A stretch of DNA of 9,173 bases, taken from positions 1 to 9,173 of the forward strand of contig CALINM010000041.1 in NCBI GenBank assembly GCA_938045315.1, in the 5' to 3' direction. A program made the translations under genes and the position numbers. The DNA comes from an uncultured bacterium. Lineage in GTDB: Bacteria; CALINM01. Of the stretch, positions 943-8,969 are shown piece after piece; the first letter of the stretch is position 1; every line of letters starts with the position of its first letter. The notes under the pieces were generated by a model. The model saw only the letters and a program-made list of their open reading frames with translations. It was not told where the DNA came from and made no database searches.

Positions 943-2889
943 ATGGAAAAAGAGGGGAATAAAGTTTATATGATTCCACCGCAAGTGGATGCATTTTTAA
1001 AATGGGGATATGAAGATTTGGAGGGTTTTTGGGAACAGGCAGCTCTTTGCTCTATGGATGAGATATACTGGTTTAAGAAATGGGATAAAGTTTTTGAATG
1101 GAATTATCCAACATTTAAATGGTACATTGGTGGACTTACAAATATATGTTTTAGTGCTGTTGATTACAATGTCATGAAAGGTAGAGGTGGCAAGGCGGCA
1201 ATTGTTTCAGAAATAGCCGAAACAGGTGAAACAAGGGTTGTTACATATGCCCAACTGCTTCACATGGTGAAAAAATACGCAGCTGCATTAAGGGGTATGG
1301 GAGTAAAAAAAGGGGATAGAGTTGTTATTTATATGCCAATGGGTATAGAACCTGTTGTTGCTATGTTAGCTTGTGCAAGGATTGGTGCGATTCATGTAGT
1401 AATATTTGCAGGGTTTTCATATAAAGCCGTTGCAGATAGAATAAATTTATCTGGTGCAGAATATATACTCACTCAGGATGTTAATCACAGACGTGGAGCG
1501 GTTATTGAGTTAAAGAAAGTTATTGATGATGCTTTGAATGAAGTGCCTGCTGGACAAGTAAAAAAGGTTGTTGTTCTGAAAAGGGCACATGACAAAGAAA
1601 GGCCAATGGTTGAAGGAAGAGACATATTCTGGGAAGATTTTCTAAAATTAGCAGAGGGACAAAGAGATGATGTGGAAATGATGGAATCAAACGAACCTCT
1701 ATTCTTACTGCCCACATCGGGAACAACAGCAAAACCAAAGGTTACTGTTCATGTTCATGGTGGATATCAACAGTATGTTTATTCTATGGGACAATGGATA
1801 TATAAGATAAGGCCAGATGATGTGTGGTTTGCAACATCAGATATTGGCTGGATTGTCGGTCATAGCTATAATGTATATGGACCACTTGTATCTGGTTGTA
1901 CTACAGTTTTGTACGAAGGAACCCCAGACTATCCAAGAAAAGATATGATTTGGGATGTTATAGAAAGAAATAAGGTTACTGCTCTCTGGATATCGCCTAC
2001 AGGTGTTAGAGGTCTGATGAAGCTGGGTATTGAAGAAGCAAGAAAGCATAATATAAGTTCTGTGGAAAGGGTTTTTTGTGCTGGGGAAGTTTTAAATCCA
2101 GCAGCATGGGAATGGATGCAATTAGAAGTTTTTCAGAATAGAATTCCTGTAATTGATCATATGTGGCAGACAGAAACATCAGGACCTGTTATTGGAAATC
2201 CATATGGGTTGGGCCTATATCCCATTAAGCCAGGTTCTTCAACCCTTGCAGTCCCAGGTGTTCAGGTAGACATAGTGGATGAAAAAACTGGAAAATCCTG
2301 TGGGCCAGGAGAGAAAGGTATATTTGTTATTAAAAAACCATTTCCAGGATTAACACCCACACTCTGGGGTGAGCCTGAGAGATATAAAAACGATTATTGG
2401 GAAAAAATTGACACTTTAAAGGGTATGTACTGTTCGGGTGACGGTGCCTATAGAGATGAAGATGGTTATATCTGGTTTGTTGGAAGAGCGGATGAAGTAA
2501 TAAAAATATCAGCTCATAGAATTGGAACTATAGAAATAGAAAATGCACTAATTTCACATCCTGCAGTTGCAGAATCTGGTGTATCTGGTGTGCCAGACGA
2601 ATTAAAAGGAGAAGTTGCTTGTGCATTTGTTGTTCTTAAAACTGGTTATGAGCCTTCGGAAGAGCTTAAAAAGGAACTTATTCAGCATGTAAGAAAGGTT
2701 ATGGGTCCGATTGTAGTTATTAGAGACATTCAGTTTGTAAAGATGCTGCCCAAGACAAGAAGTGGAAAGATTATGAGAAGGGTTATGAAAAAACTCTGGA
2801 CGGGGGAAGACTTAGGTGATCTTTCAACTATTGAAGATGGTGCATCTGTTGATGAAATAAAAGAAGCTATTGAAAAGATGAAAGTATAA
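943..2889 (+). CDS. AMP-forming acyl-CoA synthetase, acetyl-CoA synthetase-like
   Basis: A 648-residue ANL-superfamily enzyme, about the length of bacterial Acs. It should activate a short carboxylate through an acyl-AMP to acyl-CoA in the cytoplasm. The P-loop is at 258-267 (TSGTTAKPKV). WQTET at 408-412 keeps the Trp that restricts the acyl pocket to acetate/propionate in Acs. SGDG (498-501) holds D500, which binds the ribose; GRADEV (514-519) includes R515 and hinge D517; HRIG (525-528) includes R526. PKTRSGKIMRR (603-613) carries K609, the catalytic lysine that Pat-type acetyltransferases modify in Salmonella Acs. These C-terminal residue numbers match Salmonella Acs. Departures from the classic enzyme are the P-loop (Ala and Val for two Gly) and Ala524 where Acs has Gly. 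Substrate is probably acetate or propionate, but a divergent acyl-CoA ligase is possible, so I give no symbol. AAGGAGG at 931-937 supports the start. Confidence 0.88.
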   Translation: MEKEGNKVYMIPPQVDAFLKWGYEDLEGFWEQAALCSMDEIYWFKKWDKVFEWNYPTFKWYIGGLTNICFSAVDYNVMKGRGGKAAIVSEIAETGETRVVTYAQLLHMVKKYAAALRGMGVKKGDRVVIYMPMGIEPVVAMLACARIGAIHVVIFAGFSYKAVADRINLSGAEYILTQDVNHRRGAVIELKKVIDDALNEVPAGQVKKVVVLKRAHDKERPMVEGRDIFWEDFLKLAEGQRDDVEMMESNEPLFLLPTSGTTAKPKVTVHVHGGYQQYVYSMGQWIYKIRPDDVWFATSDIGWIVGHSYNVYGPLVSGCTTVLYEGTPDYPRKDMIWDVIERNKVTALWISPTGVRGLMKLGIEEARKHNISSVERVFCAGEVLNPAAWEWMQLEVFQNRIPVIDHMWQTETSGPVIGNPYGLGLYPIKPGSSTLAVPGVQVDIVDEKTGKSCGPGEKGIFVIKKPFPGLTPTLWGEPERYKNDYWEKIDTLKGMYCSGDGAYRDEDGYIWFVGRADEVIKISAHRIGTIEIENALISHPAVAESGVSGVPDELKGEVACAFVVLKTGYEPSEELKKELIQHVRKVMGPIVVIRDIQFVKMLPKTRSGKIMRRVMKKLWTGEDLGDLSTIEDGASVDEIKEAIEKMKV

Positions 2890-6248: not shown

Positions 6249-7016
6249 ATGGTTAAAACAATTTTTTATAAAAAATATCAGCTTCCCTTTTTTACCTATC
6301 TTCTGGTAATTTTTTTACTCTCCTGCGCGCCCTCTACCCAGCAAGTCAAAGAGGCAAATATACATTATGAAATGGGCGTGCTCTATTATAGAGAGGGAGA
6401 TTTTATAAGGGCTTTACAGGAGCTTGTTAAGGCTTCGGAAATAAACCCTAAAGATAAACATATATGGAATGCACTGGGGCTGACATATAGGGAAAGAAGG
6501 CTTTTCAGAGAAGCGGAAGAATCATTTAAAAGGGCTATAAGTATAGACGATAAATTTTCCGATGCATATAATAACTTGGGTGTTTTATATCTTCAGCAAA
6601 ATAGAAATCAAGAAGCCATAAAGGCTTTTCAGGAAGCTATTAAAAACATTTTTTATACAACTCCAGAATATGCTTATAACAATATGGGTTTGGCATATCA
6701 AAATCTTAAAAATTATATAGATGCAGAAAAGAGTTACAAAGAAGCAGTGATTTTAAACCCAAGTTTTGTTCCGGCCTATATTAATCTGGCAAAATTATAT
6801 ATGGAGCAAAATAGGCTTAATGATGCAGAAAAGCTTTTATTGAAGTTTTTAAGCGTTTTTGAGAGTGATGTGGAGGGTAACTTTATCATCGCTAAATTAT
6901 ATTTTTCAAAAGGTGATTTAGATAAAGCTAAAAATTATTTTGAGAAGGTTTTAAAGCTTGATCCAAGGGGTCCTTTTTCAGGACTAGCTAAAAGCTATCT
7001 GGAAGGAATAAAGTGA
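6249..7016 (+). CDS. TPR lipoprotein, type IV pilus biogenesis PilF/PilW-like
   Basis: A 255-residue lipoprotein. It has a basic N-terminus, a hydrophobic segment (12-24) and a lipobox LLSC ending at C26, so it should be lipidated and membrane-anchored. Six TPR units follow at roughly 37-70, 71-104, 105-138, 142-172, 176-205 and 209-240. Six TPRs in a lipoprotein of about 250 residues is the build of PilF/PilW, the pilotin that helps PilQ secretin assemble in the outer membrane. The insert YTTPEYAYNNMG (136-147) resembles a segment characteristic of that family. The position between rlmN and rodZ is also the pilF position in Pseudomonas. No Shine-Dalgarno is visible; the next in-frame Met (residue 42) would lose the signal peptide, so ATG 6249 is kept. 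A general TPR lipoprotein is the alternative, so I give no symbol. Confidence 0.82.
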   Translation: MVKTIFYKKYQLPFFTYLLVIFLLSCAPSTQQVKEANIHYEMGVLYYREGDFIRALQELVKASEINPKDKHIWNALGLTYRERRLFREAEESFKRAISIDDKFSDAYNNLGVLYLQQNRNQEAIKAFQEAIKNIFYTTPEYAYNNMGLAYQNLKNYIDAEKSYKEAVILNPSFVPAYINLAKLYMEQNRLNDAEKLLLKFLSVFESDVEGNFIIAKLYFSKGDLDKAKNYFEKVLKLDPRGPFSGLAKSYLEGIK

Positions 7017-7741
7017 GAAGGGAAGATTTAGAAAAAATTGGCAAGATAATTAAAGAGAAAAGAGAAGAGGCGGGCTTTACAATAGAACATATATCTAATG
7101 TCTTGAAAATTAATCCCACATATTTAGAGGCTATTGAAAAGGGTGAAATAGATAAATTCCCTGCAGAGATTTTCTTAAAAGGATTTTTAAAAAATTATGC
7201 CAGGTTTTTAAAAGTAGATCTAAGTGAATTAAATATAACAAATGGAGAGGAAGAAAAAAAACATGAAAAGTTAAATTCCCAAATTCCAGATAAAAGAAAG
7301 CAAAAGTACAATATTCATACAGGTTATCTTTTTCTAGGAGGTGTATTATTATTAATATTTATTTCTTGGATAAGGGTAGAATATGTAAACAGAAAACAAA
7401 AAAGTGATTTTGAAAAAAAGCAGGAAACCAGTTTTAAAACCATGACAACAGCCAAGGAAATTGCTTTGCAGGAAAGGAAAAAACAGCTGATAGATATGAA
7501 AGTAGCTAATGTTAAAAATATTGTTGTTCGTACAAAAGAAGATTGCTGGATTGAAGTAAAAGATGGAAATATAAAAATATTTCAGGGACTTCTTTTTGGT
7601 GGAGAGGAAAGAGAATTTCCCTATAAAAGTGGATTAAAAATAAAGTTGGGCAATGCAGGGGTTGTAGAAATTGATGTTAAAGGGAAGAAAATGGGCAATT
7701 TGGGCAATAAAGGTGAGGTTAGGGAGATAACCATTGAATAG
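7013..7741 (+). CDS. rodZ: RodZ-like cytoskeletal protein (HTH, one TM, DUF4115)
   Basis: A 242-residue bitopic inner-membrane protein. An N-terminal HTH_25-type domain (about 5-70, with EKREEAGFTIEHIS and FLKGFLKNYARFLKVD) is followed by a charged linker, one transmembrane helix (about 104-120, inside to outside), a Lys/Glu-rich stalk and a periplasmic beta domain at about 165-242 with the DUF4115 pattern (CWIEVKDG, FQGLLFGGE, KLGNAGVVEIDVKG). In E. coli RodZ the HTH binds MreB and links it to the elongation machinery. At 242 residues it is shorter than E. coli RodZ, mainly in the linker. It begins with GTG in a 4-nt GTGA overlap with the pilF-like stop, with AAGGA at 7003-7007 giving good spacing, so the two are translationally coupled. 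MreB is not in the window. Confidence 0.9.
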   Translation: MRREDLEKIGKIIKEKREEAGFTIEHISNVLKINPTYLEAIEKGEIDKFPAEIFLKGFLKNYARFLKVDLSELNITNGEEEKKHEKLNSQIPDKRKQKYNIHTGYLFLGGVLLLIFISWIRVEYVNRKQKSDFEKKQETSFKTMTTAKEIALQERKKQLIDMKVANVKNIVVRTKEDCWIEVKDGNIKIFQGLLFGGEEREFPYKSGLKIKLGNAGVVEIDVKGKKMGNLGNKGEVREITIE

Positions 7742-7742
7742 T

Positions 7743-8416
7743 ATGAATAAATTTTTCATTCTGTTCGTGGCATTTTTTTTGCGTGTTCTAATACTTCCGA
7801 ATTAACAAGGGTAAATTACGATAAAGGGTTAAAAGATTTTAATTTTGTAAGGCCACCAAAAAAGATATCCATAGGAATAATACATTATAGAGATTTGAGA
7901 AGAAATTGGGAAAATTTTAATGAGGAGTTTGGGCTTTTAAAGGTAAGTGTGCCTAAAATGGCCTTAAATCTTAATGAAGATATTTTGAAAAGAAAGTGGG
8001 AATTTGCTTCTATATTGGTTATACCCACCCTGTATTTCCCACCCACCAATTTGGAAGAATATGCATACTTGAAAAAGACCTATGAGATTGATTATATTTT
8101 AGTTGGTGAAATAAAAGAGGCCAGAATAGTAAAAATAAAAAAACCCACATCAGCGGCATATAAAATTAAGATTATTTTGAATAAAGGTTTTTTACCAGAA
8201 TCTTTTAACTATGAGTCAAGAGTTTTAATTAGTGGAAGACTTTATTCATTTGAGAGTGGTGATTTGATATGGCAAGGTAGTGGTTATAGTAAAATAAGGG
8301 AAAACAAGGTACTTACAAAGGATACATTAATGGTTATTTCTTAGCATAATGCAATTGGTAGGATGCTGGAAGATATGAGTAAAAGTTTTTCTATAACTAT
8401 AAAAGATGTAAATTAA
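7743..8416 (+). pseudogene. small lipoprotein gene with a frameshift and an in-frame TAG
   Basis: ATG 7743, 1 nt after the rodZ stop, encodes MNKFFILFVAFF and then runs out of frame to TAA at 7803. One extra T in the T8 tract (7773-7780) joins it to FFACSNTSE and the long downstream frame, forming a clean lipoprotein signal with the acylated Cys at residue 15. That downstream frame runs open to TAG 8342-8344. Beyond the TAG the same frame continues as HNAIGRMLEDMSKSF and on to TAA 8414-8416, 4 nt before queH. With both breaks repaired the product is about 224 residues. The body has an alternating beta pattern (DYILVGEIKEAR, RLYSFESGDLIWQGSGY) like small periplasmic lipoproteins of the CsgG/TolB-N/DUF799 type, but I cannot name the family. 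As read, only an internal TTG at 7895 would give 149 residues without a signal. It could be a decaying gene, a phase-variable or recoded gene, or carry sequence errors. Confidence 0.65.
7773..7780 (+). repeat. T8 homopolymer at the lipoprotein frame junction
   Basis: Eight consecutive T residues lie within the signal-peptide coding region exactly where the frame changes. A ninth T would restore the frame. Tracts like this are prone to replication slippage, RNA polymerase slippage and sequencing indels. It also contains the heptamer T-TTT-TTG in the zero frame, which permits -1 ribosomal slippage. Confidence 0.75.
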
Positions 8417-8420
8417 TTGT

Positions 8421-8969
8421 ATGATTAAAAAACTGTTGTTACATATATGTTGTGCTCCCTGCTTGATTTTTCCATTAGAAGAGTTGAGAAAAGAAGACTA
8501 TGAAATAATAGCTTATTTTTATAATCCTAACATACATCCAACAAAAGAGTATATATTAAGGAGAGATGCCCTGATAAAATATTCTAAATTAGAAAAAATA
8601 AATATAATTTTCGAAGATTACAAGCCTGAAAATTTTTTTAAAAATATACTTCAGGATTTAGAAAATAGGTGTTATTTTTGTTATAAAATGAGATTGGAAA
8701 AAGCAGTAATAAAGGCAAAGCAAGTTGGTGCTGATTTTTTTACCACAACCCTTCTGTACAGTAAGAGACAAAAACATGATCTTATATTAGAAATAGCAAA
8801 AAATATTGTAAAAAATGAGGATGTTTCATTTTTATACAAAGACTTTAGAATAGGCTGGAGATATGGGATTGAAAAATCAAAAGAAATAGGTCTTTATAGA
8901 CAAAATTATTGTGGATGCATTTTTTCAGAAAAGGAGAGGTTTTATAGAGATGAGCCAGAACTTTTTTGA
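8421..8969 (+). CDS. queH: epoxyqueuosine reductase QueH
   Basis: A 182-residue QueH (DUF208) protein, which reduces epoxyqueuosine to queuosine in tRNA and replaces the cobalamin-dependent QueG in many bacteria. Family hallmarks in order are LLHICCAPC (C10, C11, C14), FYNPNIHPTKEY with following Arg residues (33-48), RCYFCYKMRL (C84, C87), TTTLLYSKRQKHD, GWRYGIEKSKEIGLYRQNYCGC (C164, C166) and FSEKERF. These cysteines include the iron-sulfur cluster ligands and redox pair known for the family. Length is normal. No Shine-Dalgarno precedes the ATG; the stop ending the read-through frame of the lipoprotein gene lies 4 nt upstream, so coupling to a full-length reading of that gene would make sense. 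The next gene overlaps its 3' end by 20 nt. Confidence 0.95.
   Translation: MIKKLLLHICCAPCLIFPLEELRKEDYEIIAYFYNPNIHPTKEYILRRDALIKYSKLEKINIIFEDYKPENFFKNILQDLENRCYFCYKMRLEKAVIKAKQVGADFFTTTLLYSKRQKHDLILEIAKNIVKNEDVSFLYKDFRIGWRYGIEKSKEIGLYRQNYCGCIFSEKERFYRDEPELF

Follow-up and report, generated by a model that had tools for sequence, protein, structure and literature searches.

A lipoprotein gene broken twice in an uncultured bacterium of a little-sampled, AT-rich phylum: probably a recent pseudogene

In the DNA analysed here (the window, 9,173 nt of an uncultured bacterium's draft genome), a lipoprotein signal peptide and the body that should follow it lie in different reading frames across a run of eight T residues. 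We asked whether this arrangement is a switch, a recoding site, a broken gene or an error in the draft sequence. The host phylum is little-sampled and AT-rich, and all features of the locus are on the plus strand. ATG 7743 sits just 3' of the stop of an intact gene for a RodZ-like HTH membrane protein (7013-7741) and opens an ORF beginning with MNKFFILFVAFF. In the zero frame this remnant signal-peptide ORF (7743-7805), MNKFFILFVAFFLRVLILPN, terminates at TAA 7803-7805; it aligns with the signal peptide of an intact orthologue described below. The T8 tract occupies 7773-7780, and the lipoprotein body follows in the -1 frame (ACSNTSE...LMVIS, 187 codons, 7781-8341). That frame is open between TAA 7748 and TAG 8342-8344, and its earliest ATG, GTG or TTG is TTG 7895. 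At the local composition (0.097 stops per codon) a 197-codon open frame has a chance probability of ~2e-9, so the body either is a genuine gene or is what remains of one. The preliminary description had placed the ATG, the T8 tract, the stop at 7803, the -1 frame from TAA 7748 to 8344 and the TTG at these same positions, all of which hold.

Relatives of the gene were found in two MAGs only, SKW176 (G001, same genus as the window) and SKW305 (G002, same family), which belong to the same small phylum. A single-sequence scan of the genome contigs returned zero relatives, an alignment-based scan returned SKW176 and SKW305 only, and in a profile search of 290 genomes the family was absent from the 287 genomes outside the phylum, the matches being the phylum's three. 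The family members are at L003 1426-2112 (minus strand), L004 about 1420-2121 (plus strand) and 7743-8416 of the window. Both MAGs carry an intact one-frame lipoprotein gene of 228-233 codons in the same slot, with the shared synteny pilW-rodZ-gene-queH-DUF2905; an lpxC-like ORF, identified by eye, is next in line in the relatives. The G001 gene, on a contig of SKW176, has 228 codons and the signal peptide MINTRFFLLFFLSFFLIAC; the G002 gene has about 233 codons and a signal peptide ending in TIFHGC. By eye, a type II signal peptide and a lipobox Cys can be read in both intact orthologues (...FFLIAC-S in G001, ...IFHGC-S in G002), and in the window the signal-peptide elements and the lipobox Cys are divided between two frames. 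The window's body is 59% identical to that of the G001 orthologue, in which body and signal peptide share one frame. The earlier proposal that a frameshift divides a single lipoprotein gene into these two pieces is borne out by this orthologue.

The gene carries another lesion near its 3' end. Past TAG 8342-8344, the same -1 frame continues for 23 further codons (HNAIGRML...KDVN, HNAIGRMLEDMSKSFSITIKDVN) and closes at TAA 8414-8416, four bases 5' of the start of the intact downstream neighbour queH (epoxyqueuosine reductase, 8421-8969). This C-terminal remnant with its ancestral stop (8345-8416) matches the intact orthologue at 19 of 23 residues, and the base differences at codon positions 1, 2 and 3 number 2, 1 and 12, that is, 12 of 15 at the third position. 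Where the window has TAG followed by HNAIG, both relatives have a Leu codon (CTT) followed by HNAIG. When the phylum's three genomes were searched with the family profile, the window's match contained one TAG and the other two matches no stop. The nonsense codon lies 24 codons ahead of the gene's end, at the equivalent of residue 205 of the orthologue; in the structural model of that protein, residues 197-219 form a helix. TAG 8342-8344 is a premature stop of the body, a lesion overlooked in the preliminary description. The statement made there that a T9 version would encode an intact lipoprotein fails, since T9 leaves TAG 8342 in place and the product incomplete.

At the site corresponding to the tract, the intact G001 gene likewise carries a run of exactly eight T, then a G. 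Alignment of the DNA by MAFFT placed a four-column gap 3' of the window's T8, and a frameshift-aware protein-to-DNA alignment placed a -1 shift at 7779; the lesion (7779-7784) amounts to a net -1 base modulo 3 relative to the orthologue. With the gap after the tract and the shift at 7779, a small deletion 3' of the tract is as plausible as a slip within it. The same-genus orthologue is in frame with its T8, so a tract of eight does not represent the "off" position of a T8/T9 switch. Within ORFs of the window's genome (G000; 508 kb sampled, 415 kb of ORF) there are 50 T8 and 160 A8 runs, and these 210 runs compared with 27 of nine bases make a length of eight ordinary in this genome. Tract length by itself is no evidence of a switch, and we infer that the T8 tract is incidental. 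As a separate observation, in-ORF A/T runs in the sampled contigs of G000 and G001 drop sharply from eight to nine bases (in G000, T from 50 to 4 and A from 160 to 23). The drop fits an avoidance of runs of at least nine bases. A published analysis finds counter-selection of A/T runs in many bacteria once they reach about nine bases (PMC1088944).

Lesions elsewhere in the genome were surveyed by comparison of 508 kb of G000 with 878 kb of G001, which yielded about 220 coding-like orthologous pairs with a median identity of 84%. Codon-position filtering and hand curation were applied, and the lesion counts include hand decisions on which genes are real; the filter or inspection by hand removed several apparent stops of the first lesion list, which came from shadow ORFs, start-region extensions or contig ends. 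Seven genes with 14 lesions were broken in G000: the lipoprotein gene of the window (2 lesions), an ArsP-type permease (contig C10 (L021), about 17044-17958; 4 lesions), a beta-helix protein (L137, 3942-4785; 3 lesions), a 625-aa protein of unassigned family (L039, 1151-3008; 2 lesions), a PAS/response-regulator protein (L139, 7484-9509; 1 lesion), a TerC protein (L024, about 8296-8388; at least 1 lesion) and adk, present in a single copy (L047 on contig C32, 10401-11045, with TAA at 10686; 1 lesion). For at least two lesions to fall in each of four or more genes by chance, p is ~1.5e-4; the window gene was picked for having a lesion, and without it three of the six other broken genes still have at least two. 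Broken genes accounted for 5 of 53 genes under 75% identity vs. 2 of 170 above (Fisher p 0.009), and four of the five in the low-identity class carry several lesions. Lesions that are clustered and concentrated in low-identity accessory genes form the pattern expected of decaying dispensable genes. Among the 103 genes with at least 85% identity, one lesion was found in 28,822 codons (about one per 29,000). The error rate from these best-conserved genes predicts 0.008 lesions (upper bound 0.044) in a 228-codon gene, which makes a pair of errors within a single gene unlikely. Despite 91% identity to the sister's adk, the adk gene is interrupted in frame by a TAA that falls on a Leu position. As adk is an essential gene, a stop in its single copy points to some errors in the assembly, and the TAA is probably a sequence error. 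The reverse comparison gave zero convincing broken genes in G001.

The stretches on either side of the lesions still look constrained: Ka/Ks vs. G001 is 0.18 for the body, 0.15 for rodZ and 0.12 for queH. The body value, together with the conserved stretch past the TAG, indicates selection until very recently, or selection still acting if the lesions are errors. Given such strong remaining constraint, both lesions, if real, must be very young. We concluded that the locus is probably a recently inactivated lipoprotein gene, that is, a pseudogene of an outer-membrane-type lipoprotein in the pilW-rodZ-lipoprotein-queH-DUF2905 cluster. An intact orthologue occupies the same slot in G001 and G002, neither relative has the frameshift at 7779-7784 or the TAG at 8342, and a gene intact in two relatives but broken twice here makes recent loss likelier than an on/off switch. 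Both lesions would then be real mutations, and the function would have been lost in the window's lineage with no working lipoprotein made. Translation from ATG 7743 would give a 20-residue peptide only. At best, the body might be started at TTG 7895, and such a product would be truncated and unexported, having neither the signal peptide nor most of the C-terminal helix. The runner-up attributes both lesions to sequencing or assembly error in the draft MAG, with the lipoprotein gene intact in the living cell; we regard this as possible though rather unlikely. The MAG consists of 244 contigs; its adk stop is hard to accept as biology and is evidence that errors occur; low-coverage patches could partly produce the clustering of lesions; the lack of convincing broken genes in G001 also fits a poorer G000 assembly; and the constraint still visible in the body and past the TAG fits an error. 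Against this stand the low lesion rate in the best-conserved genes and the gathering of lesions in low-identity accessory genes, and the clustering statistics favour real lesions.

Of the causes listed in the preliminary description, a decaying gene and a miscall survive as candidates, but phase variation, transcriptional slippage and -1 ribosomal slippage are not supported, given the in-frame T8 of the sister gene, the TAG that any slip would leave in place and the commonness of T8 and A8. A surface lipoprotein that phase-varies by slipped-strand change at T8, caught here in the off state and functional in a C-terminally shortened form, would account for a homopolymer in the signal-peptide codons with a one-base frame offset. 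This reading is nonetheless very unlikely: the tract is short and ordinary in this genome as well as in frame in the same-genus orthologue, the TAG persists after any slip so that a length change alone cannot restore a complete product, and the rejoined product would have, by reading, a weak lipobox (FFAC vs. the sister's LIAC). The slip-prone string T-TTT-TTG at the frame transition might instead yield the lipoprotein by programmed transcriptional slippage or -1 ribosomal frameshifting, but this is very unlikely. Both orthologues are single-frame, so the transition is not conserved; in many bacteria, A/T runs are reported to be under counter-selection from about nine bases (PMC1088944); and the second lesion is left unexplained. 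Stimulatory RNA structure for -1 frameshifting was not found 3' of the tract (z +1.5). Stop-codon reassignment was rejected, as TAG, TAA and TGA all terminate ordinary genes and the adk interruption is a TAA; TAG terminates 62 of 360 long ORFs in the G000 sample. With no unusual RNA structure and TAG in ordinary use, the data lend support neither to -1 frameshifting nor to a reassigned stop codon. That the gene is alive by recoding, with a slip at T8 joining signal peptide and body and the TAG either read through or tolerated in a working shortened lipoprotein, seems to us very unlikely; if true, it would mean that an uncultured phylum has a surface lipoprotein whose production is variable or low.

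We also examined what the intact protein may be. Sequence searches of Pfam, NCBIfam and PDB gave zero significant family matches; against TIGR04455 (MXAN_6521/LA_1396 family lipoprotein) the G002 protein scored 13.7 bits vs. a cut-off of 60 (E 0.037), and the G001 protein and the window had no match. A model of the G001 protein, built from three sequences and of low confidence (pLDDT 51), resembled PelC (5t0z; Z 10.3, rmsd 3.1 over 131 residues), CsgG (Z 9 to 10), GNA1162 (4hrv; Z 6.7) and FlgT (Foldseek E 2e-7). In this model the G001 protein appears to share the helix/strand order of the PelC/CsgG/FlgT/GNA1162 outer-membrane lipoproteins, along with a lipoprotein signal peptide; unlike that set, it has no sequence family match and its model is of low confidence. 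The predicted fold suggests a role of the intact protein at the outer membrane.

A homopolymer frameshift in one draft genome thus resembled a switch, and two relatives and a missed lesion turned it into a broken gene or a draft error. Since the genome-wide comparison turned up plausible pseudogenes in this MAG as well as at least one sequence error affecting an essential gene, single-genome frameshift calls there need read support. Compared with known systems, the window shares with homopolymer phase-variable lipoproteins a homopolymer in the signal-peptide codons and a one-base offset; unlike them, its T8 is also present in the intact sister gene and a second lesion is present. The closer likeness is to the singleton frameshifted genes of the GeneTack survey, in which the frameshift is confirmed by orthologues yet not common to them, here with a premature stop in addition; such singletons were put down to indel mutation or sequencing error (PMC3711429). 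From recent pseudogenes of this type the window gene, in its poorly sampled phylum, differs in nothing of substance, and our verdict is that it is an ordinary broken gene.
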